Of a stretch of DNA of 64,000 bases, positions 23,753-54,559 are shown piece after piece. The first letter of the stretch is position 1; every line of letters starts with the position of its first letter. Location: positions 5,334,501 through 5,398,500 of the forward strand of contig NC_135241.1 of the NCBI RefSeq assembly GCF_947623445.1. The letters run 5' to 3'. Under the pieces are notes generated by a model. That model was not told the DNA's origin. It made no database searches and was given only the letters and a program-made list of their open reading frames with translations. The translations under genes and the position numbers were made by a program. This DNA is from Clavelina lepadiformis. Lineage: Eukaryota; Chordata; Ascidiacea; Aplousobranchia; Clavelinidae.

Positions 23753-23825
23753 GGGCGCGTGGCGCAATGGATAACGCGTCTGACTACGGATCAGAAGATT
23801 CCAGGTTCGAATCCTGGCGTGCTCG
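23753..23825 (+). tRNA. tRNA-Arg (ACG)
   Basis: A 73-nt cloverleaf. The acceptor stem GGGCGCG pairs with CGTGCTC through two G-U pairs. The D-arm/A box is TGGCGCAATGG, the anticodon arm CTGACTACGGATCAG has anticodon ACG, and the T-arm/B box is GGTTCGAATCC. The discriminator is G and no CCA is encoded, as expected for a eukaryotic gene. There is no intron. ACG, read as ICG, decodes CGU/CGC/CGA Arg codons. The body closely matches the metazoan tRNA-Arg-ACG consensus as I know it. Confidence 0.96.
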
Positions 23826-23830
23826 CTTTA

Positions 23831-32400: not shown

Positions 32401-35400
32401 TGGGATGACACAAAGTTTCAACGTTAGTTAGTTGCTGGAACCAATATACTGCCTATACCTCATTTGGTTAAACCCAGCAAGGTTGAGCTATGCATCCACA
32501 TGCAGTGTATTATGAATTGTAAAACACTTGAGTTGATGGAACTTCAAGATTTTAATTTCCTTACCTATCCAAAAAAATAAGAAATTTTCGGTCTTGCTTA
32601 AAAACAGTGACAGCGGCTCGCCATTACTAATAAATGTGTGAAGTAGCCGTTGTAAAACCTATTCACTTGCTTCTGTAAATAAAACGATTGCTTTACGTGA
32701 TGTAGTATGACTAATGCCACAGAAAACAAGCAAGTCTTTTCTTAACGAACTTATACCGTATAGAAAGATGAAAGGCTTATTTTGACGACCTTTAAAACGT
32801 CACCGGTGTAAATAGCATCGTGCTTAAGTTTAATAAAGATAACTTTGAGAGAGCCACAATGACAACGTCTTGTATAGCGTTTAAAGCAGTTTTATGCGTA
32901 ATGCTGAATACAATGACCTTTTTGAGAAAGATTTGGGAGAGCCAAACGTAATAGCGAAAACTACATCTTTTGTTACGATGACGTAGCCAACTGTGGTGAG
33001 AACCGATCTACTTTTTGCCCAATTGTTGTTGTTTGCCCAATTGAGTAAAACCGCCTAACTTTGCCGTTAAAACATGTTAATTCAATCAACAAGTTAATTT
33101 TGGGAGTAATAACACAGCCGTTTCAATATTTTTGTAAAAGCGCTGAGATGGAAAAAAGAGTTAGTTATAGTCGTTGACTGCCGTCTCCTAAGAAGATTAA
33201 TCAGAAGTGGTTAGTGCAAAAAACAGCGTGATTTCTACTTTTCTAGGTTCTTAAAACCGAGTTTGTGTTCTCTAATTAATCTTTTTGTGATAGCAAAGCG
33301 TCGTTATATATCCGATCCGCTATCTATCCCGCTATATACAAATAAAACAGCGATTGCTATAATTTGAACACAATTATATTCGGGCAGGAAAATTGTTTTT
33401 CACCTACACGCATAATAATCGACGCGAGTACTTGTCTCAAGCAAACGCTATTATCTAATCATAGCCCGAATTTCACAATTTTTGTTGATTCACAAAAAAC
33501 ATTCGGTTCATTTGTGTGGTGTAAAATTTACCACTTCAAAAGATAGCATATACTGTAGTTCGACGATTTGCCGCAAGTGTCAAAACGTTCGTTCGCACCG
33601 GCTGTGTATATATACTAGCGCCGTGGGTGGCCAATTAATTAATAAAGAAACACAAAGGCAGAAATTCCTGTGTTTTCAGCCTACATAAACCAATTCGTCA
33701 CAATGTTGAGCTAGAAATAACATGAACGGACGATCCCGCATACGTTAAAGAAAACATGCTGAGAAAGTTTCGATACAAAACTAACTGAAAGGTCTCGGTG
33801 TAAGATTTGCAAAGAAGCTGTGTACCAAGTAAAAGTATAATCGTAAGATACTGCAGGAAAATGGTGAAGTTCGAACGTTTTCGTACCCACTAAAGTATTA
33901 CGCAAACATTTAGCTTTGTGAACGCTTTAGTTGTAAAACCCCTGGTAAAACTATAGAACCTTTGAAGCAAAATGAAAGGAAATCCCATACCGCATCACCT
34001 CACGTTTAACCTTCATCGTTTTCACCAACACAAGAATAGAAAAAAGTAAACCATTAACGTGCACTTTCTCATTTTAACATAAGGTCATTTTCACATGGTC
34101 ATTTATTGTTTGTGACAATATTAGTCATAGAAGGAAAAGCAAACTTCGATGTTGAAACGGGGCGCGGCCGGAAAACAGGAAGAAAATTAGACCAATTCAA
34201 TGCTATGTTCAGCGATACGTCACTCACTGCTTTTCTTGTAGTTATACCTACGTTATGGTCACGTGATTTCTCTATGATGTTTTAGATTTTACTGAAGGTT
34301 GTTTACTGTATAATCGTTACCGTATGGTGCGTGTTGTTGACGAAATATGAACAAAATGTCCGCGTTTGTAATGTCGGCATTGACCTAGGTGTAATGTGAT
34401 ACCCTGACATAGAATGTCTTCAATTTCACGAAGCCCGTCATAGAAATGAAAAGGTAAATCTAATTTAAATATAAGAATAGGTTACGGAGCATCCGATCAA
34501 CGCAATGTCGCTACAGATTAGAATCCTATTCGTTTGAAGGTTAGTTGTTTGAATAGATGTCCTGCTGTTATAAACTACGGGGAATTGCGTAGGCTTAAAC
34601 GATTGTCAAGTATAAAACAGCGTTGTGAAAATGTCTTTCTATTATGCGGCGAATCATTTCAATGGTAAGTTCCCTGGCCTCATCTGTCTTGTTTCGTTGT
34701 CGTTTACTTGGCGGTAAAATCTTTACACGGTCGCCTGTAGGCTGATAAAACCCACCTTGATGCGTGATCAGTCTAGTGCAATACATCAAGTTTGATTTGA
34801 AAAACGGTCTTACAGTAAAAATGGTTGTCAAATGCTTCCGAAACGTATACGAATGATTCGGCATAAATTTGCGGTGTTCCAAACGCTCGTTTTACAGGAT
34901 TTTAATTGTAGTATAGCGTGTGTTTCTACACCACAGTGACTATCCTGTCATCTGTATAGCAATTGTCTACAATTTAAAGTCTGTGTTTAAATAACCTCAA
35001 AAAGACTTTATTCTTCATATGTCATATTATGAAAAACTCTTACGCTGGAAAAGTACGTCAGAAAAGACAATCACATAGACACGTGACAAAGTTGCACTTA
35101 CAAATCTCATTATTTTGAAGCACAAGACTGCATTATGACGTACTGGAGTCACTGGAGCCATTGCACAGCCCGATGTGGACGAGGAACTCGCGAAAGAAGA
35201 AGACAGATCCACATCCAGCCATCCGGAGGAGGAAAACCATGCGGGTCAAGGAGACAGAGAAAAGCGTGTTATCACACTGACAGAAGATGTAGAAACAGTG
35301 GTAAGTTTAACAGAAAGTGGTGACAATGCAAAGAGTTTCCAAATTCCTAGGAAAGTGTAGCAAATAATGTGTATTTGAATTATAAGTGACCAGCGTATTA

Positions 35401-36684
35401 TGTAAAGTAAGTTGATCTAACATTACGTTAAAGACGTATAATATTTGCTTCAGTATATTATGAATCATCTGGATGTGCTTCAGAAAATTCGCCCTTTAAA
35501 AATTTATAAAGACAGCGCTCAATATTTATAAAAGATAAGATAAGTTGCCAACAATTATAGCAAGTTCATTTGATGTTTACTCTTGCAGAGATTGCGCAGT
35601 TACTGCCTGCAAACTTGAACAGAAAGCGAAACGAACCGGACAAGTGGGAGAGGCCAAGCGTAATGAAAAAGATAGCTGCTAGAAAGAAAAGGTAATTTAA
35701 TTATCCAATAAAAAACTGAGTCACAGCCCTTTATTAAACGTCCAATGTATTTATACACTCTTTGAACTGTACGCTTACTCGGTGAGTTAACTCAACTTTG
35801 ACTTTCAAGCGTTTTGAAAATTACATTGTGAATGACATTTGGCACATGGCGACACTTATACTTAACTATATAAACCTTCTGTATTTCCATTATAATTCGC
35901 CTAGCCGGTTTTGGCATGATTTGAGTGATGCATTTTTTTGATTCTTTTCAAACACTTGAAAATTATCTTATCAGTTTACGTGGTTTATGCAATGTCACGC
36001 TGCTAAAATCAAAGAAAATGTTGTTACAGTGTACATTGTTGTAATCACCAGCTATGTTCGTCTCACTTTCTGATCATTTTGTAGCTATTGCATACACTAC
36101 CGGATAACATACGTGGCGTGGTACTGCCGCTATGCGTCGCCCTATCACGTACTCAAGCCTGGTTCGGAAGTCTGCGCTGAATGTCACGATACAGCGATGA
36201 ACAAAGAAGGACATTGCCAAGGTAAGTGTAATTGTTCAGAACGGTTGGAGAAATTTCTTTTTTGGCATTATCTGAAAACTATTTTCAAAAAGAATGGAGA
36301 CACAAATTTCATTTAAATAAGCTTGTCAGACAATAGTTAGGCCTATAGAGTCTGGAATAGATATAGGTCGTTATAATCCTCAAGATTAAAAATACATGTG
36401 AACCCCGTTGGCACGTAAGAAAGTTATGATAACCATAACATTACTCACGTTACTGTAAGAACCCAAAAATCTCCAAATTAAACCTTACAGCAGCAACGGA
36501 GGTAAAGCTCCCGCTTACAGCATTCTTATATTGTGTTTTAATTACAGGCGCGACGGTGGGCATGGTAAGCCGTTGGAGGGCGATGTTGGGTCGATCTTGC
36601 TACGGATCTTGGGAGAGTATTGGAGAGGTGGAAGAAAATTGCACGTGCGGAGAAACGCAAGGAAAAGATTTTATTTTTGTTTGA
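26479..36684 (+). CDS. SBSPON-like secreted somatomedin B / thrombospondin type 1 protein
   Basis: Five exons: 26479-26719, 35121-35300, 35589-35691, 36085-36221, 36548-36684 (TGA). All phases match and give about 265 residues, close to human SBSPON (about 264). Exon 1 encodes a signal peptide and a cysteine-rich somatomedin B domain (RCC...CYC...FC...DCC...FC). Exon 2 encodes a TSP1 repeat (YWSHWSHCTARCGRGTRERR). The last exons hold the family's C-terminal Cys module (YCIHYRI, VCAECHDTAM, SCYGSW, CTCG). The product should be secreted and matrix-associated; its molecular role is poorly known in the family. The exon spacing is uneven: an intron of about 8.4 kb follows exon 1 while the rest fit in 1.6 kb. 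Exon 1 could belong to a separate SMB protein if exon 2 had its own start, but phase and domain order favour one gene. Confidence 0.9.
26720..35120 (+). other. 8.4-kb first intron of the SBSPON-like gene
   Basis: No spliced gene or RNA gene was recognised on either strand. Short open stretches, for example 31093-31332 (+) and 34595-34882 (-), lack homology and splice support. The intron is far longer than most others in the window, so it may hold enhancers or old insertions; I could identify neither by eye. Confidence 0.6.
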
Positions 36685-37997
36685 GAAAAGGATTTTTTTG
36701 CAGTTTGTTCCTATTTTCTGTACGAAAAATGTGTTGTTCTCATCCGGAGGTCCTTTGCTTAAGTGTTAGACGAAATTTTTCATGATAAAAACTTTGCGAA
36801 TTCAGATGAAAATCAAGTACAGTTATAATTGCTTTATACCTTTTTTGGAATTTATAATTTTGGAAAAATTTATACTTTTAACGGCATACAAGCTAATGAA
36901 ACCCACAGGCGGGAAGCACATATCTTATCAATTTCTACCTCTATCATTCTAGTCTGCCTTAAACTTGTAGCATTAGCACAAAGCAATAACATTGTTGCGC
37001 GACATTGTTGTCGACACGAGTGATAAAAAAAGTCTTGAATCATCCCGAAATTCGTTTGCATTGGTGTTTTTCCAATAAGGTGTAGGCGATATGTGAACGT
37101 GTGTCAAGCCCTACTTCGGTTTTTAAAGGAAAGTTTGGATACCGCTACAACAGTGACAACCACGACTGGCGATATCGTACTTCTGATGTTATTGAGTGTT
37201 GCTGAGCTTTTTCGTCATTTTTTGTTTTTTTGTTAGTATAATATCGTTACAACCGATATAAGAAACAAGTTACGCTTTAAACATTATATCTTTATCGCAG
37301 TGTATTGTTTCTCTATACTTTATACATTTTGCATCCCTTTCATATACTTTCGTACGAAGAATATAGCTTAAATGGCTGGACCGAATCCACCAGTTTCCCA
37401 TCACCCTATCGTACAAACTCTGTTTGATTTCGTTGTTGCTGTGCATTGTTTGTCCATACCATCAGCATACTATTATATTACTTTTGCCTTTTTCTGTTTA
37501 TTCAGTAAACGTTTGCCTGTTTTTCTTAGAGAGTGCCTGTATTTTATAAGCTGACATATTGCTTGCTGTAAGTTGAGATCGCTAAAAGCGTCACCAGCAA
37601 TTCAAAATATTTGGTCAGTTTTCAAATTAATGTTAAAGGAGATTTCTCCATGTTGTATAGTTGCAATTTGCTGATACCAATGTCCTATGGGATAAATTAG
37701 TTTCGTAAAATAAAACAAACAGCCTTCATTCGGTCAACCTGGCGTCTGCATTTATCAATAAAACAAAATACAAGGAAAATTCGTGTTTTGTTCAATCAAG
37801 AGAGAAAACACAATCATAACAATCAGAATTATGCATGATATGTGGATTGATTTATAGATTGATTGATGTCAGCTATGACAAATCAAAGCAATTAAACGAA
37901 TTCTAGTTTAGATTTGATTTGCAGTAATCAATCAACAGAGATAAATACAATTAACAGAACAATTAGTAATGCTAGTGCTACAACGTGGTCTGCTCGT
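36685..37997. other. Convergent intergenic region between SBSPON-like and SGPL1
   Basis: Lies between the stop codons of two converging genes and should contain both 3' UTRs and polyadenylation sites. No gene is recognised here. Confidence 0.5.
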
Positions 37998-40900
37998 TTA
38001 GGTTTTATAAATTTCGTCGAATAAATCCACCAAGAAATTGTCGATTATTCCATCGCTAGGCACGACAGACAGCATTCCGTAAATTGCCGAATTGCCTTGC
38101 TTTGTATCAGTGCCATGAGCCTACAAGTCAAAGAAATCGTGTTTTAAGTTCGATTGGAGAGAAAGGAAAATGTATTCGATACGACTAACGTCAGAAAAAA
38201 GGCACATGCCCCAAGCACACTTCCAAAAACAATCGATTTGTACAAAAATGTCATAATACCCCAAATTCACAGTCAAAACTGTCACACAAATGCTGTATAC
38301 AAAGCACCAAAACCATCACCATATAAAATACGGTTTTCATCTCGGTTTCGACTTCTATCGTATACATTTTTGCGCCAACTAACGCCTAATATAAATCTCT
38401 TTTTCTCAAAATGTTAAGTGAAGAGACAAATGGTGAGTGAAATAGACATACCCGGATGTAGTCGACCGCTTCTTTCAAATCTGTTAACCACTGACTGGCG
38501 CTCTTGATATGTCCAGGAAGAATAGTGCAATGGACTGAGTCAGGATTACGTTGCACCTCCAGTTTCCAGCCTAACAACAGTCAGGCGTTACAAATGAGCT
38601 TCAGTGGGATGTTGTGTCACATTTTATACAGAATATTCTATTTTTCTATTTCAATAATTTCCTTTAAGTTTAAATAGCTCATTGGTGTATAGAAAACAAG
38701 GCAAAAGAGACAGTTGCCCTGATGGCCAAAATAAAGCGAATGTTTGAATTGGGGCCATCTTTTGCTGGTGACATACTTTCATTATTGGTGACATACAAAT
38801 ATAAAAGCAATTTTTCAAATTTTGTTAGTTAATATTTTGGTATACAGGTGTCTATTTGTAACGTAGTCTAATAAATACACGACAACAGGATAGTAGCTTG
38901 CTAATGGCATGTGATACAAAAATGCCCGAGATTTGCGAAATAAACGCAATTAACAAACTGAGAGACAGCAGATGGGTCGGGGCAGAGTACAATTACCATG
39001 TATACGAGCAGTGGTGCATTTTTGTGTCAATGGAGAATCATCGATTCAGACCAATTACAAGAAAATATCGTAAAATTTATGCTTTACTTATGAGTTATGA
39101 CAAAACACTGTTGTTTCAAAAATTGTCGTTTGCATCAAAACAACATATCAATTATACAGTTTGTTAGCATGAAAACAACATATCATTGCTGTGCAAGACG
39201 CAACAGCACGTCAATGAGCTGCAAAACGTGCAACTAAATTCCGGATCTACGTAAAATCCGATAAATAATCGAAAATGTTTCTACCTTGCGGTTGTTTACC
39301 GTTTTCTTATTGCAAGTTTTAGCAAAAATTGCCAAGTTGTAGACGTCAAAAACTGTCTCCGAAATCTCTGTTGTTAGTGTAATTTTTGCAGCCATCAAAC
39401 TAACATTTTGTAAAAGTCATAAGCGTGGATCTATGTACGGCAGGCCACTATTCGTTCAACAAACATACAAATAGGATACAAAATCTGTTTAGCGCGTTCT
39501 ATCCAGTAAACTTCCATAGACAGGAGATAAATAATAACGCGGTTAAAAATGGCTCCGTAAACTATGTGGATTGGAAAGACCGTACATTTATCAGAGTTTA
39601 ACGACACTAGCTTTGATGAGAATATAGATAATATGTTTGGCAGAGAGCTCAGTAGTATAGTAGTATAGTAGTAATATAGTATTCAGTAATATTACTCAAA
39701 TATCGCCAAACGCGCAGGTTACCTTAGGTTCGACAAATTATCTAGGGCCAATAGCAAACAAACAAAAAAGTTTGGGTGAAGTTTAGAAACTTTAGATAAT
39801 CCCAAGTGCTGACGAATGACAATTATACATATAATTCTTCCGCGATAACCATACAGTTTCAAGAAAAGCAGCTAGTTAATTAATGCGGTATAGTTGCGTG
39901 AAAAGAGTAAACAAAGCAACATCAAACTATCGTTTCGTAGAATGGTCTCGGGGAACTAGGCAAGGAAATTTGATCCACCCTACAAGAAATAAATTAGGAA
40001 ATTGTGTGTGTTCGTTACATCCTGCTGACTGTTTGCTACTACTGTAGATGCTATAGGTGCTAAGCAAGCTATAAGGGCTTTGCCCTAATCAACAAGCAAA
40101 AGTGGACATATAGTAGTAGAAACGTATATGATGCAAATATAAGACTGGTATCACAATAATACAGAGATACTGAATTCGCAACGCAGAAATGCTAACGTTT
40201 TTGTTACTCAATTTAAACGTGTAGACAGCGCTAACGAAGAAAAACCTCGCAAAGGTGCATTTTCGGCATCAACATTAGAGGTAGCAGAAATATCGCCAAA
40301 AGGCAAATATTATATATAACACAGCAAGGCCTTAAAAAGTTACCATTGAATTTTTAATATTTCAAAGAAAATAATGGTCGCCCGTTAAACCACTGTGAAG
40401 ATTATAACAAAGCAAACGATAATGTTTCAGAAACAACTGAGCACGCAGTCGGAAGAGTAAACAGCTAGGTTGGAGTCTTCAACAAGACACGATAGCGAAG
40501 AAAGGTAACGACAGGTGCCAAGAGACTTAAAAGGTATTGCAGCCTACAGGCGGAGCAGAAACAGTTTCGAAGTGACTAAAGTTAATTTTAAATGTTAACA
40601 TTGAATTCAAATATTTTGCACTTTTTTCAAATACTATAACTATAATAATCTTGTTCTTCATAAGTTATTCTATCAGCAGTAGGCAAAGATATATGGTAGG
40701 GACATGCTCATATTGCCATTAGTAATAATTCATGTCGCTACAGCGAGTTGTTTTTCTTTCAATGCGACTTCGAGTAAACCTAAGAGTTCAGCGACACAAA
40801 CCAAAGAAGTCGTGATGGAAAATCCGAAACTTCTCACTGAAGGAAACAAGACGAAAAACAACAGGAAAATAAGTACGTGTCTGCGGTGGGGCGATGAATG

Positions 40901-43900
40901 TTTGTTATACCACGTAGGCGTGTTACCATTCATAAAAAAAGTTGTTTTGCTCAAAACAATTGGAAATTAGGGAATAATTCCAAACCACCTTTTTGCAGAG
41001 AAAATCTGGATTGAGTCAGTTATGCTAAGACATATACTACATTGGGATCCTGTTTCACCTTCAAGTCGTTACACTGTACTTTATCGAAAGAAGTAAATAC
41101 TTGGTTGGGTACATGCATAGCGCCTTCCTAACAGCAAGTGTCATGGCTGAGTATTATTGTAGGGTATTTAACAAAAGAAAATTATTATTCGCACATAAAA
41201 CGCGAAGCGACAAGGCCGCCTATCATTTAAAACGGCTCTGCACTTGCACACAAACGCATTTTTCGTCGGTTGCAACTTGGTATATAAGCTTGCTTCTTGT
41301 TAGATTTGGTCAGACGAAAAATTGGGAAGAGGCACCGACCTGTTCTAAGATCAAACAAACTACCTGCGATCTCAGCAGTTATCTGCAGACTCCATTGGAG
41401 TATATCATCGGGGTTACCACTGAACCGTTTAAAGAACAATACGTTGGAAACATTTCGTTTTGGACAGAACGTGACAGTAAGTAATGGCAAAAGGTAGTGG
41501 ACCATTGCATCTGATGCAGTGACTTTTCGGTAACAGATTACGGAGTACAATATTCGTTTCAGCAATCTTGATACCACCGACGTTTAGTGCTATTCGTCGG
41601 GAGAGCAAAATACTTCTTCGAATGGATTCTCCACGAAACCATGGAAAGAATGGAAGCATAGCAAAAGATCTAGCGACGCTGAATTTCCAGGTAAACTGAA
41701 GCATAAAAACGATCCAGAATACCTTTTCTGTCTGCTGATTAAAATAATTGTTTTCGTCAGGTGGATTACTGGCCCGGTAATGATACAAGCAAGACAAGAA
41801 CTCAATACTTGCAAGTTAAACAATTAGAGGAAAGGGCGGAGTTTGTTTTGACGGTATTAGACATTAAGTAAAATGGCTGCATAAGAACGGCCTATTAGCA
41901 ATCATAGTTTTAACACAAACTGCAAGGGATCATTGTTAATGAATCGCATTACAAACGCGACAGAATCTCTCTAAATGGTCGGAATACTGCATAAAATCGC
42001 GGCTGGTCGAGTTGTCGTTCATGAGGTTAAACCAAACAACCGGGAAGAGCAACTGGACAAAAGTTTTGTGCCTAAAACCGATAGAATTTTTAACGTCAAC
42101 ATCTAACAACAAACAAGTTGTGCTGCTAACGATTGTATCTTTAGCTGCTATTTGCGTAGCCCTTGTTGTACTTTTCCTAGCTTATAAAAGCTGGAAAATG
42201 TATAAATTTATTCACATGGTGGATGACATACCAGAAGAACTGGTGAGTAAACAATAATGCATCAATCTTTATAAAACTAAGTGTTTAGCTGTTTTTTCAC
42301 AAAGCGATTAATAGCGTTTAACAAACTGAACAGGAGCGAGCTCTGCATGAAATGGAGTGCAGCAACGAAGGTGAAGATTCTTTGAAAAATACAAGTCCAA
42401 TTTCGGAGAGAGTAGATGAAATATTGCACAGCGACGTTGAAAACCTGACATTGGAAGAGAAAGAGTTTGTGCGGGCATCATGTTTTTGCAAATGCGAAAC
42501 TGCGTGCAAAGCGCAAGACACTGGTAAGATATACGTTACTTCTTTAGGACAATGGCCAGGGTATTTAAATGTAAATTGCAATACACCTGCAAACATCGTT
42601 GAATCTTCATTGTAATTCCTCAGACGCAAGGGTCTTAGAAAATTCAGTTGACACCAAAAAACATGATTTTATTAATAAATTACGACGACAAAGAAGTAGA
42701 AGCCGAGGATATCACAGCGCATCTTCCGAGAGCACACTGAGCAGTTTTTCGAGCGAAACCGACTTCGAAAATCATCTTTTCATCTCATCTCAACAAGCTG
42801 AAACCAGCGTCACCTCAGAGATTAGTCGAGAGAAACCAATGGCCACAGAAGTCAGATACGTACAAGAATTATCCTTCCACGTCTCAGATGATGATGAAGA
42901 TCAGGGTGCTTGGAGTAGTGCTCCTTCATTTCCAAGCGCAGAAGAACAAGATTTTCCTCCACTTCCCGACGACGTGTATGTCACGGAAAGCGACTTGCCA
43001 AATTACGTTCAGGCTGGGGAGAAACTGTTACACCAAACCGACATTTTATCAACGTCTGTGATAACGAGTGACCCAAATCGTAGAGGGGTGCAGTTTCTCA
43101 ACTCAGCAAACTTTTACGTGCTTTCCGACATACCGAGGCGCAAATTTCAATAACTTAATATATGTTGGCTTTTTTCAAACACTAATTTTACAAGCTCTTT
43201 TTAAAAAACATCATACATTTCTTTACCGCCTTTCGATTATAAGTTGTGCTTTGCTGTACATTGCATTGTACTACTGTACATATATACTGAAAATATATAG
43301 CATGTTCAATACAAGTTGACATTTCGTCGAGAAAATTGCGGTGAAGTTACAACATTCAAACTGACATAAAGTGTACGGGATGGGCAATTACATAGAAAAT
43401 AAGCAAACCTATACCAAGAGAATTAGATTATTTTGCGCCTGGTTGATGTTTTGTCTACACTACAGCAACTGTCATTTTCAGTTCAGCTATAATGTATACG
43501 TGACTTTGCAGCAGCCAGATCGACATAATTAACCATTTCCTCCAGGTAAAATACTGCGCTTGCGCAAATATCTCATCGGCTAATGGTTTTCATGGTTGTC
43601 GAAAACAGAAAATAAAATAAGCCAGAACAACCCGCCGAACAACAAAAAACTTGAAAAACTTCAAACGTAAAGGGTCCTAATTTAGTGAATCAGAAATTCG
43701 TGGAAACCGAGCGGAAACATAAGCCCAAGACACTTGAGTAACGGTTGCAGTGAGTTTAGCATGTTGAAACAACTATCCGAAGCACGAACGCGATGGTTAG
43801 TAAGCCGCAAACGAGAAAAATTATAATCGCTCAAAGACAAAATCGGAAAACAAACAGGAAACTGCAAGACAAGTAACAAGATATGGGTCATTTATTAGAC

Positions 43901-46900
43901 TGTGGGTTGAGTTGAGGTCGATTTGACAATTTTTACGTGTCTGCAGCAATGTAATTAATGCTCAGTGTCAATGGCTTCACTTGCAGTATAGAGATATTTT
44001 TAATCGGAATTGCGATTGTGCTGTTGAACAGCAGATCAAAAATATCTGACTCGAAACGTGTTCGTGTCATTGTTTTTGATAAGCAAAACTCAATTCTCTC
44101 CTGTTCACTTCGAAATTTGAACGAGAGAACACAACATCTACTTCAACGAAACTTCTAAAAATAAAATCACATTCAGTGAATTTCATCGTGTGGTTTTTGT
44201 ATTGCAATAGCTCTGTCATAATAATGAGTAGGTATAACAACATCGCAAGCATATGAACAACAAACAACGCGATACTAACGCAACGCCAAAACCTTTAAGC
44301 TACAAAACGAGCCAATCAAGGCAAGGAATACCGTCCCAACTGTAAAAACACCAACGTTTCTGCAAAATGACTTTTGTTGCAAGAATAGTTTTCTACGTAT
44401 TTAAGAGTGAACGTTGCATGTGCTATAAGCTACTAGGGAATATAAGTCCACCGTTCTTATAATCTTTCTGAAGCTAACACGGTGAAATTGAACTTCATTT
44501 TGGGTAGTATATTGCAGACGACAAAGCAGCATATTTACAAGGTTTACACAAATATCGAAAAACTTGTTAGTAAGTATCACAGTATCGAAAATTAAAAAAA
44601 AAAAACAAAACCGGAAACACACGGAATGATATGAGATGGTATTTGCATTGAAGATCAAACGCAAGCAAACAAGAGCCAATTTACCTGTTGAAGCATAACA
44701 TAACGCCATAACGTTGAAAACAGGAAATATGTCAAACGCGAGCTCTGTGTCACAATAAAACGACAATTTGCTAGCAGGCTATGACGATTTTCAACAGAAT
44801 ATCTGGTTCTGAGCTAATTGATACCTCCGACTCAGATTATAGCCTACACACATACTCTCGCAAAAATTCAAGGTGAACGTTTATTAGTTGCTATTCCTAT
44901 GCATTCATGCCTCGCACTCAAAGTACGCTTTGGATATTTGAACTGGATTTTACTCGGAGCAGTGAAATCGGTTTATTGTTAACATTGATAAAGTTTACAT
45001 AACACGGTGACATCACGGAAACGCTTCCACTACAAACACAACATCTTTGACGTTGCGCAAGATTTTTGACATCGTTACATATGCGATGAAAAACCACTTG
45101 ACAGGAAACTAGAGGCCATGTTTTTGTCTAAAGTTACGCGGTGAGGTGCATAGTAGTTAGCAAAGTTCATGCTACTGTATAGCGATGAAATGGCAGAACG
45201 TCGTCTTTTACCGTCACAAATGAATTAACGCTTAAACTGTACGCGTGACAAGAATAATGACATTATCCGTCTTAACGAATCGGAATTAGCAGCAGGAAAA
45301 CGTCTTCTCATTTTACGTGCGATACGTTCCCTGCAGTTGTTTTTATAGCATTATAAGCAGCTAAAAGTAATCGTACATATCTAAACCGGAGTCTGGAGAG
45401 TTGGGCGCACGAACATAGTCTGCTGTAAATTCGTACTGAAGAGGAATTTTAACCATCATCTGCGGCTTGCAGGGAGCGGACCTCATTTGCACGTACGATG
45501 TGCTCGGATCAGGCTTGAGTATTTTATCCTCAGTTTCGCGCCCATCATTTACTACCCTATCTCCTAAGGCAAGCCTATGATCTTCTTTCGTTCTTGCATT
45601 AGCAGAGAGTTTCATCACATCCACATCTTTGTCTTCCACTCCGAGATCAATCAATTCCGCATGTTTTGCCAGATCATTTAAACTCCTTATTTCATAATTG
45701 CAAGAGTACACGTTACTGGACTGTCTAAGGACGTTGTCCTTGCCTAACGGTTTGTCAATTGTCAACTGAAAACATTCGAAATTTTATAAACATGACATGA
45801 GTAATACTGGTTATTTTAGGTTATAAGTCTACTGTAGCAAAACAATGTCAGGTTTACCAAAGAAATGGGAACGATGCTGTCATTCTTTCCTTTGAAGTAA
45901 TTCACCAAACGTTTGACCAATTTCAAGGTTATTGCTAAAAACGCCAGGAATGATAAAACTCCAATGGTTGCCAAAGTGGCATAAAGCAAAACTGGTATTG
46001 TTGATGAATCCGTGACGGCGGAATCTGCGCAAACAACACGTCATAATTTACGTCGATTTCATTCTTTCCTGGAATATCAAAGTAATTAAAGTAAACCATC
46101 TGGTTTGCAACCAAGAAGTTAGATCTTAACACGATCTTCCAACACGACTAACAAGCGACACTTTTAACGGCAACAAAAACGTTTGTCGCGTAGTATGACT
46201 AAAGAGTAGGTTGATAGTAGGAGAAGCCGAAAACACAAATACCTTGAACACAAGTGGGTGTAGACCATTCACATGGGTCCAGTGAATTTGAAAGGAGACG
46301 CGTTTGCACACAAATTGAATCCGTAGGTTCGGCGACGACTGGAAAACTAATTCCATCTGCAATCGATTCATAATTCTTCACAAGCTTTTCCGATGTGGGG
46401 TGAGTTTTGTTCTAATAAGAAATATGAATATAGAAATAAAAGCAGCAGCATCACAAGAAAGTATCCCTCAAACCAATATATGCATGTCGATATAACATTC
46501 CTTCGATTGCTTACTTGGATCCAATATTTGGCCTGATAGCCTAAGTCGCCTTCCAAAGCATCAATGAGTAACTCTGACGACCAATACGCATGCGGAGGGT
46601 CAATGGATAGCCTGACATAACTTCCATTGTAACTAACTGTAAAGTTAGGCGCTCTAAACAAACCTAAAAATATACGAAAATATATAGAACTATAATAGCT
46701 CAAACTATTATAGTTATGAGTTATGATCAATTGAATAACATAACGCAAAATATCATAAACATTTCTTGCCTTACCGTGGATATAAGGTACAAAGTCGTAC
46801 ACAGCATTCTCATCGTAAGCGCTGATATGGTCATCAATTTGTGACAAAACGGTAAAAAAGTTCGACTCAAATGCGGAATTTGAAGTCTTTAAAATGCGAC

Positions 46901-49900
46901 AGTAACGGTGGGTGATGTTGGTGCAGTGCGGCATATGTTTCCAACTAAAGTGGTAGAAAAGCAAATGAGTCAAACACTAATGTGCATTTTTGATAAAATG
47001 TGATATCCTACAAAATAACTCGTGGAAAGTATCCAAACGTGAAACAAAGAAACTTTTCCTGCAGTATAATGTATATATTAAACACCTTTGGTTCAATAGA
47101 CAACCATAACACAAATACGCAATACTGCCTTGTTAAACTTCTAAACGAGCTGCATACTAATTTACAAGTCAGAAGAAGATCATTTAAACTAAAGCATGTA
47201 ATCTCAAAATGTAGTGTGTATACTCATACCAGTACACGTGAGATAGTGATTAATTATTATTTGATCATATAAGGCAATAGGGAGTGTCAAATGTGTTTCC
47301 TTGAGAGGAGTAACTCACATGTAAGCTTAATACAATATAGGAAATAACCGATGTGAACGATAATTAATTAGAAGTATGGCAAATTACTGTATATGAAACG
47401 ACCTACTAAAACGGTTGGTCAAGTAGCCGAAGTTACACCATCCTTTGGTAACACGTTTCCTCGGGCAATGTAAGCTATGATGACATTGACAGCCTATAAA
47501 TTATTATCAAAAGTTGAACGCGCTTAGACCAAATGCTTTTAACCAGGGGTAAATTTATCAACTGGGGCTAAAATTAAGGGGTAAAAATTCCGATTTAGAA
47601 GTTAAAAACGGCATTTCCAATTATGAAAATAAGTGTCTTCATTTGATTTTTTTTTCTCTTGCCTTAAACATCACAATAATGACGTTAATTTTGATTTACT
47701 TAAATGTTTATGTTGTTTTATCGAATTTATCCGTATGCATTCATCATAAATTTAGTGTCTGAGAGTAGCACGAGGGCTGAGGGTAATGATAAAAAAATGC
47801 TAATGATCTAGGCCAACTATCAAACTAATAATATAAATCCACTGGCATCTGCCTATCTAATACATTGCTATGTGTTATCTAAAACGATGCCCTTCAACCT
47901 ATAGTTTTAAATGAACTCTGACATTTTAAATTCAAAACAAACCATTTCAAACACATTGTATTACATGACAGACATACGGGCTGGCTCTTTCCAGAACTTA
48001 GCTATAGGCGTTACCTTTAGCTACTAAAACGTTTATTTGGGAACAACTAAAACACATTTCATAAGTTATTCAACCGCATAATATGTCAAAAACAATTAAT
48101 GGTTATATATTTATGTAATACTATTTATAATGTGTTAAAGCTTACTTCCAAACTTCGTCATCGTCATCCATTGCCCAGTAAAGGAAACGATAACGAATCA
48201 CTTTTCCGTTGTATACGTCAACCCCGCCCCTTACGCGGCTGCCGTTTGGCGCATTCCACGCAAAAATTGTGTTCATGTTGTAGGATTCAACCAAGTGAAG
48301 ATTCTGTGGGGGCGGGACATCTAGAACAAAAAGCTTTTTTATGTACACCAGCCAACATCAGACTAAATGAATTGCAAAGATATTTCCTATTTCGATAAAC
48401 AATTGCCTACCTTGCTCGTGGAGCAGTTCAGTTGTGTTGTCCAGAAAAGCAGAGACAACCAAACAGAAACAAGTCGAAAAACATGAGAAGCAAAACAGCT
48501 TTCTGGACGACATTTTACATTAGATCAAAATACAACGAATAGGTAAATTCCTGAGACAATTAAGCGGTATCGTCAGAGGTGAATATTAGGGAACATATTT
48601 TATCTGTAGCCTAGGCCCTAGAGCAAAGAATGCTAAATGGACAGTAGCCTATATCATATTCACAAAGCCACTAATTTCGTTTCCACTGAACCTAGACTCA
48701 ACATAATTGTATCTGTATCTGCCGTTATCTGTAAAACTTTTGCAGTCGCTATAGAAATCTGAAAAGTTTTCATATCAGTCAGACTCACAAATTTAGCGGA
48801 AAGATTGTAAATATTCTTCAGTTTCTGACTTCTGGGAACAGCTCAAGAACAAATACAGCAATGATAGCTGTCGGTATGCTTCTTCAAAAAGCTGACGAAA
48901 ACCGCTTGCAATGAAGGCTAATGCTAAAGATATATTTTAAGACTATTTTCTGTTGATTTCTGCGAAGGCGCGACTGACTGCTTTTTCTAAAACGACTGTA
49001 ATTACTATGACGTTTCCTGAACTGGGTAACGCGATCCCCTTCAAGCGTCATGCAAAGACAATTTCGGAAAAACGAAATTTATCATCAACAATAGGAACTA
49101 TAGCAAAACGCCTGTGACGGATGGGGCGTTCTAGCCCAAACTAAATTCGAATTTGTGAGGTAATAATACTTCAAACACGCGTCAATTCTTTCCGGGTGGC
49201 TTGTAACTATACAATGGTTGCCTGCATACGGAGATCACCTTGCACAACACAAACCCGCTAACAGGTCCACTAAACAATCAAACCGCTACTTTCCCGGTTC
49301 TTATGATGTTAGACGCCGTATTACCAGACTTTTCTGCCCGCTGCAGCAGTGGCAAAGCGAAAACAACCGTATATTGCTTGTTGAACATTTCAGAAGCTTA
49401 TTAAACCACTTCCGGTGTGGGCTTCTGAAAGTGTGCAAATATACTTAAGTGCTTAAGAATGGTTTAAACTTTAAGGGATATATAATATCTAACAATGTTA
49501 CAGATGTTGTACAAACCTGCTATAATAAACCTAAACGGCAATAGGAAGAAAAATAGTAAAACTTCCTTCATATAGCAACCTAATTACATCAATATTTTCA
49601 GCAATATTCTAATTTTGTTCAGAAAATATTTAAACTATATGATACCAAACGAGTGTGGTAGTGCAAAATAACGAAATTAACCCGACACGCTGATTATTTT
49701 ATAGCATCCGCTTTGCCGCTGCGAATAACACGGTAGCAGCATCAAAACATCTTATTATGATATGCAATTTTGTATGTTTATCGCAATTTGCGTAACACAT
49801 GTAAATAAGGTAGAGAAAATACCTTTCTTTTCCATGACGTCAGCCACACCAAATATGCTAACGTCTTTGTCATTTGAGGCAAACGCGAAAGCTGACATAA

Positions 49901-52900
49901 GTGGTTTGCCTAACACTTGCAAACCCTGCAAAATATACAGTTAGTGTGATACGTATTCTTATGGTACTGTTTGACAAATTACATAACCAAGGTATTAATT
50001 GAATGCATTTATTTTAAATGATTTACAATTACATTGTCGACTACAGTATTGCTAATGTAAGTGCAACATATTGTGATGGAAAAATTTAAGTTTACAGCTA
50101 GACAACTCGTTGAAAGAAACACGTTCATATTGCTGGACAATCTGTACAGCTAAACAAAGTACCTGGATACGATTTATGCCGTCTTTCATTTTATTCGCAG
50201 TGTCCATAAGTTGTCGAGCCATATCTATAAAACCGTCCTGTCCCATAGCACGTAACGCCGCCCAAGCGCCCGCTAGATGGCCACCTAGAAAGGAGGTAAG
50301 TTTATGTGAATTTAGACAGCGCTTAGCTAGTACAATTTATCCAGAACCTGCTTACTTAATCAGAATGATCATAAACTAAAATTTAATAGAATTGAACACT
50401 GATACATTTTACTGCGTCGATAGTGCTTATATTTACTGCATTTTTATCTATTTACCTATTTATATGTTTATTATTTTCTTGGCTTGATGTACCTGGTCTA
50501 GTTCCAGCCATGGTCGGAGAAACAAACAGACCACCTGACCAACCGGAGAAGGCAAAAAACTGGTGCTTTCGAATGCTGCTATTTCTGTAACACACTGCAC
50601 TGGCACCTTTGGTAGCAAAACCGTATTTATGAAGATCAGCAGATATTGAAGTAACACCGGGAAGTCTAAAATCCCACTTCGGGATTTTTACGCCCAATTT
50701 CTCAACCCTAAGAAAACACAACGATGTTTGTTGAAATTAATTGCTATGGTTGCTACATCAGTCTTTTTTGGGCTCGGTAAAGACATGGAGCCCTGCAACT
50801 CTGCAAGGTATCATGCATTTATGAAAGCTTTCTTCCAAACTCGAAAATATACATTGTACACATAGTGTGTGCGTCCTAATCTCAGCAGAACTTTAGAAAC
50901 AGACTTAACGAATCATACCATGGTAACATAAAGCCTCCGAAGCATGCATCGACGTGTAACGGCAAGTTGTGGCGCTCGGCAACGCGTGATATTTCTTCTA
51001 CGGGATCGAGGATAGCCTAAAACGTCAAGATCACTTCAAATTACACAAGTTTGCCATGGAGTATTAAAAATTGGTAAGTAAGTGTCAATGTGAGGAGCCT
51101 ACAGAAATAAGAAAGTCAAACTACAAAACTTGTAACTCTCTAGCGCCTACGCGCGAGACCAAGGGCTCAAATAGCCCTTACATGGTGGAAGCATGAAAAA
51201 GTTTTCAAACTCGCCTGTGGGTATGATGGCGCAGATGCCAAGAGAAGGATTGTATTTGAGTCAATTTTCTTTTCATACTCTGCGACGTCACAGATCAAAG
51301 TTTGTTTATTAACTGGGACATGTTTCATTGTCATGTTGAAGTAGTGAGCAGCTTTTTCAAATGCAGGGTGTATTGAAGCTGGAGCAATCTGATTAAAAAT
51401 GAAATCTTTCATATAGCCATTAAAAAATAACGATCAACTAAAAGATATAAGCTAATCGAAACGGACAGGATCTGATTAAAGCACTTCACCACGTTAGGCT
51501 GTGTTATTTTCGGCTTCAAGGATCTGGCTCTATCCCGATGTGTCTTCATCGCCATCAGTATGCTTTCTGTACCGCCCGATGTTATGCTTCCAACAACCTT
51601 GCTATCTCCGTTTAACATGTTTGCTGTCATCGACACAACTTCGTTCTCAAACTTCCTGTAAAAGATTATGCAAATTCAACCAGAGCGTTTTAGACCGGAA
51701 AAGAGACGTTAGCACATGCTGTACAGGCAGCAAATTATATACTGTGATTAACTAATTAAGTTATATTAAATGTAACAAGTACAGCAATCGTGCTTATTGC
51801 TTGGGCGCCTCCGCCGAATCTGTTTGCAGTGCTCGGAGAGCTCGCTGTTTCTCGTGCTCATTTGCTACCAAAACTTTTAGTTATATGGCAGACCATTGAT
51901 ATTTGCACAACTTCACTTTTATTAACCCCGCAATCAATGTTAAAATTGACAAGGCTGCTTACTTATGAGTACTTTATGCGCGATAATATAATGGTTCCTG
52001 CCACAATAAGCATTAGTTAGAGGTTACTAGAGATACACACCTTTTTCTTAGCAAAAACTAAAAATTGCATCAGTGAGAAACAAGATAAAAACCACTGCTT
52101 CAAGTATTACCTCAGCGAAGGGAAAACCATAGGATTGAGAGCATTGTCGTGCATAAACGCCTCCACATAAGCATTAACAATGCCAGCGTGTTCACTGTTC
52201 GCATCACTCAGCGTCATGTTAGTAAACATGCTAAAAGCTTCTTTCTGTAAATCGATAAGGTTGAATTAGTATGATAGCATTTAGCAACATCATTACTGAC
52301 AACATCGCTGAAACACATGCAGACGTTTAACAAGAAAACAAAGCGCCTTATCGCCAATCATTACAGGGTTAGGTTTTGATTTCGAGTTTCACAAATCCCT
52401 GGCATACTTTATACATATTTAGTATTGCAAACTGCCATTAACACAACCTAACCGCAAGCGATTTGCACCTATCAGTGTCAATAGATGTAATTTTATGTTA
52501 ATATTTCGCAGACTGCTGTAAATAACCGGTAAGTTGACCGTGCACACATTTTTCAGATCATCAGAAGTACTATGGCAAAAATGAGAACGCTGCAACCCTT
52601 AAGCGGGTATTTTTGTAGAGCAACACCTATATACACAAAGGCGGTAAATAATAAGTTGAAAAATGCGGCGAAGACTTACTAGCTTTCATTGGAAGAAAGA
52701 AAATGTTGGTTTTTTGCGTTTAGTGCTATACTACAAATACACTAACCTGCAACTCCATGCGCGGACCCTCGGTGGTATAGACGTAAGCAAAGAGTCTCCC
52801 ATCCTCGACTTGTGTACCGTCACCTGCTTTCAGAGCCACCAACTCTTGTCTGAGTTCATCGATTGCTATCCCTGTACAATTTCACACACGGGATAACCAA

Positions 52901-54559
52901 CTAGTCAAGCATTACATCATAGTCTCGTAGACTCATTGGGTTATTTCAGTTCCAAAGCTTCACAGCAGTAAGCACACAGTCATACACAATGCACATGCTC
53001 AATTAAAACTTTAATGCTTGCTTCCTTTTTCATTCAAACAACAAAAAATGACGCTACAAAAACCTCGAAACTGGCGGTTACTGCTTTGGGTTTTACAATA
53101 ACTGCCAAATAATGGAAATTAATATAAATCGCTATCTGACTCTTAAGAATGATTAGAAGGTTGCAAATTCTGTCTAGAAACTCCTAAACTTCAGTTGAAT
53201 AGCTTATATAATTTTAAACGCTGAAATTCTGATTAATATAGATTTTAATATTATTCATTATTACTTCAAACAAACACTAAAATTACAACAATATTATTAT
53301 TATACAGAAAAGGTTTTAAGAATTATTTAACAATAAAGGCGCATCACACTACATTTCATATCGACTTAAAGAATTATTCACAGAGTTATTACGATCTATA
53401 ATCTATATCTTCTCATTAATTGAACTTTAAAACTCTAATTGTATACTGAAGAACTAATATTTAGACAACTAGAACCAATCTAATACTGATTCTGAATGCC
53501 TCATTACATAGCATGCAACGGTAGATTTATACCCTGAAAAAGATAATAAAGAAAGAAATTCAACTTGAAGAGCAATGCGTTTTTCAATGACAGGAAATGA
53601 TTTGGACTTTTTAAACTCGAAGTTTACGCTCAGGTGATAATTACAATCTGGCAATTTTCAATTAAGGGAAACAAATTTCAATCAATATGGTCTATTTTTA
53701 TATTAACAGTGTTGTTAATACAAGGTCAATCGTGCAGTTAAACATTTTTACCGATTAAGTTGTCAATCTCATAGGGTAATTTCGCATTTTGCAAACTCAT
53801 AATGCAATGTGAATAATGTAACATGTTTGCAAAACATAATGACAAATATGGAGTTATCATATTTTGCAAAAAGTTCAAAGGTGCAATGCAGATAGCATGT
53901 TTACGGAACTGATTGTCAATCAACTATTCTTCGATAAGTTTGTAATTATACCGTGAACTTAGATTGAACTTATGGCAAGCATGACGTTACGTAATAGCGC
54001 GGTAAATATCAGAAATTTAATTATAATGATACAACTTGGAAGACAATGGAAACAGTGTCTTCCAAAACCAATACAAAACCGTTTTTACAGATTTCTTTGG
54101 TACAAGTGCAACACGTAAGCTGAGATTTAATGATTAGTGCCCTCTATGCTGCTGTGATAGCCTGCAGCCCTGCACTTGCAGTTGCAAACGGAAAAGACAA
54201 AACATTTAGCCTTTACACTAGAGACCACCGTAAGGCAAAGTATACAACAATCATGCATGCAAGCTTACAGCATATTGACCATTAATACATATTTGACTTG
54301 ATAATTTACCTTTTTGAGGGATGGTGACTACGTCTGCTGCTTTCTGCGTATTCTTTTCAAAGGTGTTTGACATAAAACCATCTACTTCTCTTTTAGTAAA
54401 AGCCCTAACAAGTCGGTCAACTCCGGGCAGGCATATTATGAACTTAGCTAAAGCTTTCAGCACTCCACTAAACCCATTTCTCATAAACACATCCACCAAG
54501 TGGACTGCAACAAAAGCTGTTACAACGTAAGGTATCCAGAAAACTGCTTGACATTCCAT
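37998..54559 (-). CDS. SGPL1: Sphingosine-1-phosphate lyase
   Basis: PLP-dependent ER-membrane enzyme that cleaves sphingosine-1-phosphate to hexadecenal and phosphoethanolamine, ending sphingolipid breakdown. Exons, 5' to 3' on the minus strand: 54559-54310, 52871-52747, 52244-52111, 51655-51490, 51388-51215, 51016-50919, 50707-50493, 50284-50163, 49925-49823, 38570-38452, 38120-37998. The frame is continuous: 543 codons including the stop, against 568 residues in human. Exon 1 encodes the N-terminal membrane anchor. Landmarks are [20 protein letters not shown], the PLP-lysine motif [12 protein letters not shown], and SGWSGG. The C-terminal exons carry [14 protein letters not shown] and SAIYGML, both matching in phase and family sequence, so the gene spans an intron of 11,252 bp between 49823 and 38570. 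Intron 5 (after 51215) appears to be GC-AG (CAG|GCGAGT). Confidence 0.95.
38571..40703. other. SGPL1 intron 9, 3' part, before the nested + strand gene
   Basis: Mostly non-coding. An 89-codon open stretch at 38898-39167 (+) has no recognised domain. The promoter of the nested + strand receptor must lie in this segment; no element could be named. Confidence 0.4.
39651..39680. repeat. Imperfect AGTAGTAT short tandem repeat
   Basis: Repeated AGTAGTATAGTAGTAT units of low complexity inside the large SGPL1 intron. Confidence 0.6.
40704..43153 (+). CDS. Class II cytokine receptor-like protein 1, nested in SGPL1
   Basis: Single-pass receptor. Exons: 40704-40872, 40999-41092, 41304-41476, 41563-41690, 41761-41853, 41964-42242, 42334-42523, 42624-43153 (TAA). 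Phases match throughout and give about 551 residues. Order: signal peptide ([16 protein letters not shown]), FN3 D1 ([28 protein letters not shown]...TCDLSSYL), FN3 D2 (IPPTFSA; SEYC...NWTKVLC), membrane helix ([20 protein letters not shown]), and a long Ser-rich, acidic tail. The paired-Cys pattern (CDL-type in D1, YC...C in D2) and the lack of a WSXWS box suit the class II (interferon/IL-10 receptor, tissue factor) family better than class I. The tail has YVQE, YVTE, YVQA and YVLS. JAK-STAT signalling is inferred from family; the ligand is unknown. Confidence 0.85.
43154..45360. other. Gap between the two tail-to-tail receptor genes
   Basis: Holds the two 3' ends. The minus-strand open stretch 44401-44766 and other short frames have no homology or splice support and are not called. 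Confidence 0.5.
45361..48513 (-). CDS. Class II cytokine receptor-like protein 2, nested in SGPL1
   Basis: Exons on the minus strand: 48513-48411, 48320-48146, 46944-46775, 46663-46515, 46375-46243, 46024-45858, 45765-45361. All phases match and give about 433 residues. Order: signal peptide ([18 protein letters not shown]), FN3 D1 ([29 protein letters not shown]), FN3 D2 ([25 protein letters not shown]...CEWSTPTC), membrane helix ([20 protein letters not shown]), a VPISL segment that could act as a Box1-like JAK site, and a 135-codon last exon. The tail carries YVQM (45484-45495, YxxM type), YVRA and a terminal MYDYF. It is transcribed in the same direction as its host SGPL1 and opposite to receptor 1. 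Class II assignment rests on the Cys pattern and D1/D2 strands; a class I receptor lacking WSXWS is the alternative. Confidence 0.85.
48514..49822. other. SGPL1 intron 9, 5' part, and promoter side of receptor 2
   Basis: No coding exon recognised. It should contain the receptor 2 promoter. Confidence 0.4.

Follow-up and report, generated by a model that had tools for sequence, protein, structure and literature searches.

A tunicate gene related to SGPL1 but distinct from it carries two predicted class II cytokine receptor genes, tail to tail, in a long intron

What kind of gene carries the 11-kb intron found in a 64,000-nucleotide stretch of Clavelina lepadiformis contig NC_135241.1 (the window), and what would the two cytokine receptor genes inside that intron mean for it? 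An earlier note on this DNA had taken the host gene for the sphingosine-1-phosphate (S1P) lyase gene SGPL1, and had raised a link between S1P and immune function through shared expression. We consider it likely that the arrangement is an ordinary nested one, in which a tunicate S1P lyase (SPL)-like gene other than SGPL1 carries a convergent pair of class II receptor genes in its ninth intron. The three gene models, their nesting, the family of the receptors, a separate SGPL1 on contig C6 and an altered phosphate site in the host could all be read from the DNA. Positions are those of the whole window, and the contigs called C6 and C9 belong to the same 209-Mb, 95-contig assembly.

The host gene was rebuilt from the sequence on the minus strand, with 11 exons (54559-37998). 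The predicted product has 541 or 542 residues and no internal stop, its length being set by an ambiguous donor at 51493/51490. Exon 1 (54310-54559) holds the start codon and an N-terminal hydrophobic stretch, and exon 2 (52747-52871) the equivalent of Y105 of the bacterial lyase StSPL together with a Tyr at the A103/T148 site. Exon 3 (52111-52244) bears Asn in place of the phosphate-binding His of SPLs; exon 4 (51493-51655) may end at 51493 or at 51490, either being in phase. These are followed by exon 5 (51215-51388), exon 6 (50919-51016), exon 7 (50493-50707), where the lysine that binds pyridoxal phosphate (PLP) lies within SADLHKYG, exon 8 (50163-50284), and exon 9 (49823-49925), the final exon ahead of the long intron. 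Exons 6 and 8 were placed by the gene model, and exon 10 (38452-38570) by the gene model, the alignment to SPLs and tblastn. Exon 11 (37998-38120) is coding to 38001 and is closed by the stop codon TAA at 38000-37998; an AATAAA at 37497-37502 on the same strand is a candidate poly(A) signal. All the introns are GT-AG except for one GC-AG, and the phases are consistent throughout. The GC donor is apparently used by intron 5 (CAG/GCGAGT), after the exon at 51215-51388.

Intron 9 (minus strand, 49822-38571) is exactly 11,252 bp long, with the donor AAG/GTATTT and the acceptor TTGTTAG/GC. Exon 9 leaves in phase 1 and exon 10 accepts phase 1, and the intron length and the exon end at 49823 given in the earlier note proved exact. 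Exons 10 and 11 are part of the host protein, since its alignment to solved S1P lyases is unbroken over query residues 141-539, which spans both. The two receptor genes, R1 on the plus strand and R2 on the minus strand, lie wholly inside this intron and are convergent, with 2207 bp between their stop codons. The earlier description of two complete genes, tail to tail between host exons 9 and 10, thus holds. At the DNA level each of them is a complete gene within the intron of another gene, and the nested arrangement is real at that level.

Could there instead be no nesting at all, with exons 10 and 11 being a pseudogene or detached fragment, or the locus being misassembled? The length of the intron favours this idea: of the 23 introns in the host, R1 and R2, the remaining 22 reach 1438 bp at most (median 162 bp), and intron 9 is 7.8 times the next longest. 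The nine other introns of the host measure 101-1438 bp and are short, as had been claimed. However, phase, splice sites and homology all agree, and both exons are intact. When host exons 10-11 were used as the tblastn query, full matches in the window were found solely at 38571-38452 and 38120-38001; with the C-terminus of StSPL as query both places were matched again, though weakly (E 0.034 and 0.67). Beyond these, the window contained no credible copy of either exon, the next hit (E 0.39) being on the wrong strand, and the alternative pair near 49.8 kb that the earlier note had named as a counter-case did not appear. Across the assembly of 209 Mb, the host protein matched just one place besides the window, a distant intronless gene on C6. 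A misjoin at the locus is unlikely, because the window is without any N and sits in a 26.5-Mb contig. We also observed no clear repeat of at least 24 nt flanking the insert, but a single direct pair at 71% and no inverted pair. We therefore regard the detached-fragment or misassembly account as highly improbable. In the intron, Rfam reported no RNA gene at the gathering score, its sole match in the window being a tRNA at 23753.

Nested genes are common. The systems H13/Mcts2 (PMC13309782) and LRRTM/alpha-catenin (PMC3933685) likewise place complete genes in a host intron; unlike them, the present locus has two convergent multi-exon genes of one family in one intron, and these are not retrocopies. 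Among the literature matches listed, none reported this nesting in an SPL-like host, the phase signature of the receptors or a diverged adjacent pair of class II receptors in a tunicate, which is not a claim that they are absent from print.

R1 (plus strand, 40704-43153) has 8 exons and encodes a predicted protein of 551 residues. Its exons lie at 40704-40872, 40999-41092, 41304-41476, 41563-41690, 41761-41853, 41964-42242, 42334-42523 and 42624-43153, with intron phases 1-2-1-0-0-0-1. A candidate poly(A) signal, AATAAA, follows at 43611-43616, and a second one at 44160. R2 (minus strand, 45361-48513) has 7 exons and encodes 445 residues; the exons lie at 48513-48411, 48320-48146, 46944-46775, 46663-46515, 46411-46243, 46024-45858 and 45765-45361, with phases 1-2-1-0-1-0. 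The candidate poly(A) signal 3' of R2, also AATAAA, is at 44972-44977 on the minus strand, with a second at 44885.

The label of cytokine receptor was borne out for both genes. Measured against the curated Pfam cut-offs (27 bits for PF01108 and 21 bits for PF09294), R1 passed both, with 47.1 bits (2.4e-12) and 34.7 bits (2.2e-8), and R2 passed that for PF01108 with 31.3 bits (1.9e-7). The best solved relatives of R1 were IFNAR1 (5.3e-8) and IL10RB (3.2e-7). R1 and R2 matched each other in BLASTP at 2.4e-5, with 20.6% identity over 223 columns, and R2 aligned to R1 through the second domain (D2) and the transmembrane segment. A profile of the two found IFNAR1 (6e-10), IL20RA (2e-6), IFNGR1 (1e-5) and IL10RB (2e-5), although part of this is the signal of R1 itself. 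The rule for class II cytokine receptors is a C-x7-C pair in the first domain (D1) and a cysteine pair in D2 with a Trp between. Both proteins show the D1 pair (C66/C74) and a D2 pair, C199/C219, that frames W214 (numbered by the first row of alignment A1), and IFNAR1 and IFNGR1 show the same D1 pair.

The exon structure also bears on this assignment. The order 1-2-1-0-1-0 is described, in the part of PMC8863823 that treats it, as the pattern of most IFN-upsilon receptor 1 genes and of other interferon receptors. R2 has exactly this order. In R1 the first four phases fit and the later ones differ; membership of R1 is not excluded by phases alone, since the source says 'most' (PMC8863823).

The same departure of R1 after its fourth intron could be taken as a sign of decay, and we considered whether one or both genes are decaying or non-signalling (decoy) copies. 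In addition, no YxxQ was found in the tail of R1 or R2, and no YDKPH in either protein. Matches to JAK/STAT motifs were only loose, namely VPISL of R2 beside the LPKS motif that PMC5281639 names in IFNGR1. However, both genes have full open frames, hydrophobic starts and one strong transmembrane segment each. Their tails of about 260 (R1) and 157 (R2) residues contain several tyrosines, and a proline motif lies close to the membrane in both (IPEEL in R1, VPISL in R2). A decoy nature of either receptor is thus very unlikely in our judgement.

With the class II family (CRFB; IFNAR1, IL10RB, IFNGR1) the pair shares PF01108 in both members, PF09294 in R1, the D1 and D2 cysteine pairs, the one transmembrane segment and, in R2, the exon phases. 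From the vertebrate members they differ in being distant (single-sequence matches are weak), in the changed 3' intron pattern of R1, and in that no vertebrate-type STAT docking motif was recognised in either. These observations led us to conclude that R1 and R2, as predicted from the DNA, are class II cytokine receptor genes, R1 being IFNAR1/IL10RB-like and R2 IFNGR1-like with weaker evidence. As a lead from the nearest relatives, R1 may be an accessory chain and R2 a ligand-binding chain. Each would cross the membrane once, and together they would form a heterodimer that signals via JAK-STAT; STAT_bind matches were present on three contigs of the genome.

Class II receptors in tunicates are already known, since PMC3210801 describes one apparent member in Ciona intestinalis (GI 198428337) and one in amphioxus, in the portion of that source that deals with them. 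Compared by description, the Ciona receptor belongs to the same family; it is a single receptor without a DSG motif, whereas here two lie adjacent and R2 has a DSG. A diverged tunicate pair, one member of which carries the vertebrate exon-phase signature, would put a paired receptor before the split of tunicates and vertebrates, and perhaps even the IFNGR1-like and IL10RB/IFNAR1-like lineages predate it. Whole-genome protein searches with R1 and with R2 each matched only their own exons and missed each other, so that such searches are blind to paralogues this diverged; PF01108 applied to the whole genome, exon by exon, failed to recover even the receptor genes of the window and was uninformative.

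Two smaller features of the receptor genes may be mentioned. The end of the R2 tail (45361-45420, minus strand) has the DSG motif, which recruits beta-TrCP to IFNAR1 and IL-10R1 and was not found in the Ciona receptor according to the same portion of PMC3210801. As 490 of 10000 shuffled tails (about 5%) carry a DSG by chance, we do not press this degron. The strongest acceptor-like AG in the 150 nt ahead of each start codon scored, among all AG, in the top 8% for R1 (at 24 nt) and the top 2% for R2 (at 37 nt), compared with the top 15% for the host (at 103 nt), on a scoring matrix built from the same three genes. This is suggestive of a 5' untranslated-region intron or of trans-splicing; a Ciona spliced-leader 16-mer was absent from the window.

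We then return to the host. If it were SGPL1 itself, the nesting might tie cytokine reception in immune cells to the breakdown of S1P. The host clearly belongs to the SPL superfamily, with 341 bits (1.2e-100) to bacterial StSPL and 321 bits (1e-94) to human SGPL1, the PLP-binding residues that were checked are kept, and its hydrophobic N-terminal stretch has a counterpart in the C6 gene. But C6 holds a far better orthologue. This is an intronless gene with a 568-residue open frame in one piece (L001:1036-2742, contig C6:3028936-3030141), and the best solved relative of its product is human SGPL1 (E 5.8e-194, 649 bits). Identity to the human enzyme is 56.9% (278/489 columns) for the C6 protein, in comparison to 36.5% (177/485) for the window protein, which is 35.0% identical to C6 and 39.7% to StSPL. 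The window gene is thus not the genome's closest gene to vertebrate SGPL1; C6 is nearer, and the SGPL1 orthologue, as predicted from the assembly, is the intronless C6 gene and not the host. The C6 SGPL1 may have arisen as a retrocopy and taken the place of a parent gene with introns. An approximately unbiased (AU) test rejected a clade of the window, C6 and human proteins (p 8.6e-5), but did not reject it once StSPL was added (p 0.257). Two of the five positions that bind the substrate phosphate also differ, with Asn in place of His and Tyr in place of Ala/Thr; taken with the better orthologue, this makes it very unlikely, in our estimate, that the host is SGPL1. With another gene as the SGPL1 orthologue, the S1P-immunity link of the earlier note, which that note itself called speculation, loses its basis. 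The SPL-like window gene is easily mistaken for SGPL1, and for work on S1P in tunicates the C6 gene is the one to study.

The residues of the host were compared with those that contact the substrate phosphate, listed in StSPL numbering in PMC6148460 (section 5.1 and Table 3) as Y105, H129, A103 (Thr in human), N126 and K317. We observed that the window gene retains the equivalents of Y105, N126 and K317, while two of the five positions are changed, H129 to Asn and A103/T148 to Tyr. At the site of H129 (human H174), human SGPL1, StSPL and C6 all have His. The THK and AGSR sites, with their Thr and Ser in C6, human and StSPL, read LHK and AGTR in the window gene, which also has a 23-residue insertion after VY. 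The PLP-binding residues K311, H201, D274, C276 and H310 were all kept. In comparison to SGPL1 (human 4Q6R, StSPL 3MAD), the host thus shares the fold family by sequence, the PLP lysine and the His, Asp and Cys around PLP. NCBIfam gave no family above its cut-off for the window gene, the C6 gene or two bacterial relatives.

The changed residues, apart from the Tyr, are mostly shared by a set of prokaryotic proteins. A small-alignment scan of prokaryotic genomes gave 507 confirmed loci, of which the best 80, ranked by likeness to the window gene, were compared; their best segments are 38-48% identical to it. At the H129 site, 66 of these 80 loci have Asn, 11 have Ser and 3 have Asp, while none has His; the Thr of THK is present in 2 and the Ser of AGSR in 3. 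The A103/T148 site is legible in 71 of the 80, as Leu in 62 and Met in 9, so that the Tyr of the window gene is peculiar to itself. The prokaryotic SPL-like PLP enzymes L061, L016, L041 and the Lokiarchaeota locus L031, at 42-47% identity over the best segment, illustrate the likeness: such enzymes mostly share the Asn/LHK/AGTR-type signature of the host, differing from it in the Leu or Met of the A103/T148 site. A 33-row tree was built from 29 of the 80 loci together with the window gene, C6, human and StSPL; in it, human, C6 and StSPL were split from the window gene and the others with support 100/100. Judged by its sequence, the host protein is SPL-like but divergent; its signature residues are of prokaryote type and its substrate-phosphate pocket is altered. 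The simplest interpretation places the host in a sister subfamily of PLP enzymes and gives it a different or modified substrate; it probably keeps PLP chemistry and acts on something other than S1P.

Was the gene then gained by an animal from a prokaryote, its introns being filled in later? The placement of the host with prokaryotic loci in the tree, away from SGPL1 and StSPL, and the signature residues point in that direction, as does the identity of the prokaryotic segments when set against the 35.0% to C6 and 36.5% to human, although the latter are whole-alignment values and the measures differ. However, the comparison set was prokaryotic only, and an old second eukaryotic subfamily is equally compatible with it. 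The ten introns argue for long residence, and the long branch, as well as a grouping with SGPL1 and StSPL that the AU test did not reject, also speak against transfer. We consider such a transfer unlikely, though it is the most probable of the alternatives weighed here.

Several points weigh against our interpretation of a separate SPL-like host with a class II receptor pair. Splicing across intron 9, the promoters and the expression of the three genes are predictions from DNA. For R2, Pfam gave no PF09294 match to the second fibronectin type III domain, either with the whole protein or with the D2 stretch by itself, and its best single-sequence match among solved structures was weak (IFNGR1, E 0.014). 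In the tree, the two nodes that place the window gene are supported at 81/88 and 88/54, and the branch leading to it is long, at 1.3 changes per site. The AU test did not reject a clade of the window gene with animal SGPL1 and StSPL, and the prokaryotic loci had been selected for their likeness to the window gene. Regarding the phosphate site, one of the tabulated enzymes, BsS1PL, is taken by us as the Burkholderia enzyme. In that table His stands at the H129 site in four of five S1P lyases and Gln in one, the BsS1PL column, and yeast mutated at the phosphate-binding His is described there as less healthy, not dead, with some function left (PMC6148460, same section). Because of this Gln and the partly functional yeast mutant, the Asn of the host alone does not exclude S1P cleavage.

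How might the three genes work together at this locus? On the reading of an SPL-like host that is not SGPL1, the host pre-mRNA would be spliced across the 11-kb intron, while R1, on the opposite strand, and R2, on the host strand, would be transcribed from their own promoters inside it and would end at their own poly(A) signals. The host enzyme would retain its PLP chemistry, probably on a substrate other than S1P. Should the genes be linked in their regulation, the link is more probably mechanical, with nested transcription hindering host elongation, than a shared S1P-immunity programme. In H13/Mcts2, transcription of the nested gene causes premature polyadenylation of the host, as stated in PMC13309782. 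Here the stretch from host exon 9 to the start codon of R2 is free of AATAAA and ATTAAA; the host strand of intron 9 has six AATAAA and two ATTAAA, all past that start codon. Such interference would strip the host protein from about residue 462 onward, and it therefore predicts exclusion, not co-expression, of host and receptors.

A bolder version can be drawn from this. A gene of an otherwise prokaryotic PLP-lyase subfamily, possibly prokaryote-derived, would host a minimal receptor set of one ligand-chain-like and one accessory-chain-like member, and convergent transcription of R1 and R2 could shift host expression to a product truncated at the C-terminus, leaving receptor-expressing cells without the enzyme in mutual exclusion. 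We hold this to be quite unlikely as a whole. What is of interest in the ordinary nested arrangement is the paired receptor set in a tunicate and the presence, in an animal, of a gene from a prokaryote-type SPL-like subfamily; the S1P story falls.

The surroundings of the locus gave some further observations. A Somatomedin-B exon above the Pfam cut-off and, about 9.3 kb on, exons that match the SBSPON C-terminus below the cut-off lie in 26464-36684 (plus strand), and may perhaps form one SBSPON-like gene with long introns; long introns may therefore not be unique to the host in this region. On the right-hand side of the host lie exons for the N-terminal part of a dynein heavy chain (DHC_N1; 60763-62078, plus strand), and these adjoin a hAT-family transposase fragment with a 310-residue open frame (59412-60344, minus strand). 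Two arrays with a unit of about 15/31 bp, at 3242-3408 and 3794-3985, are about 400 bp apart, and their consensus units look reverse-complementary; they are perhaps a large inverted-repeat structure. The tRNA at 23753-23826 (plus strand) was identified as tRNA-Arg(acg) by ARAGORN and Rfam. Elsewhere in the assembly, a cellulose synthase gene above the Pfam cut-off, a tunicate marker, was seen on contig C9:12557660-12558118 (L089), whereas a search for COX1 gave no match. Tunicates are described as the sole animals producing cellulose directly, in the abstract of PMC10334666. The predicted cellulose synthase gene, the vertebrate-like SGPL1 and the class II receptors together support a tunicate origin, with which they are consistent.

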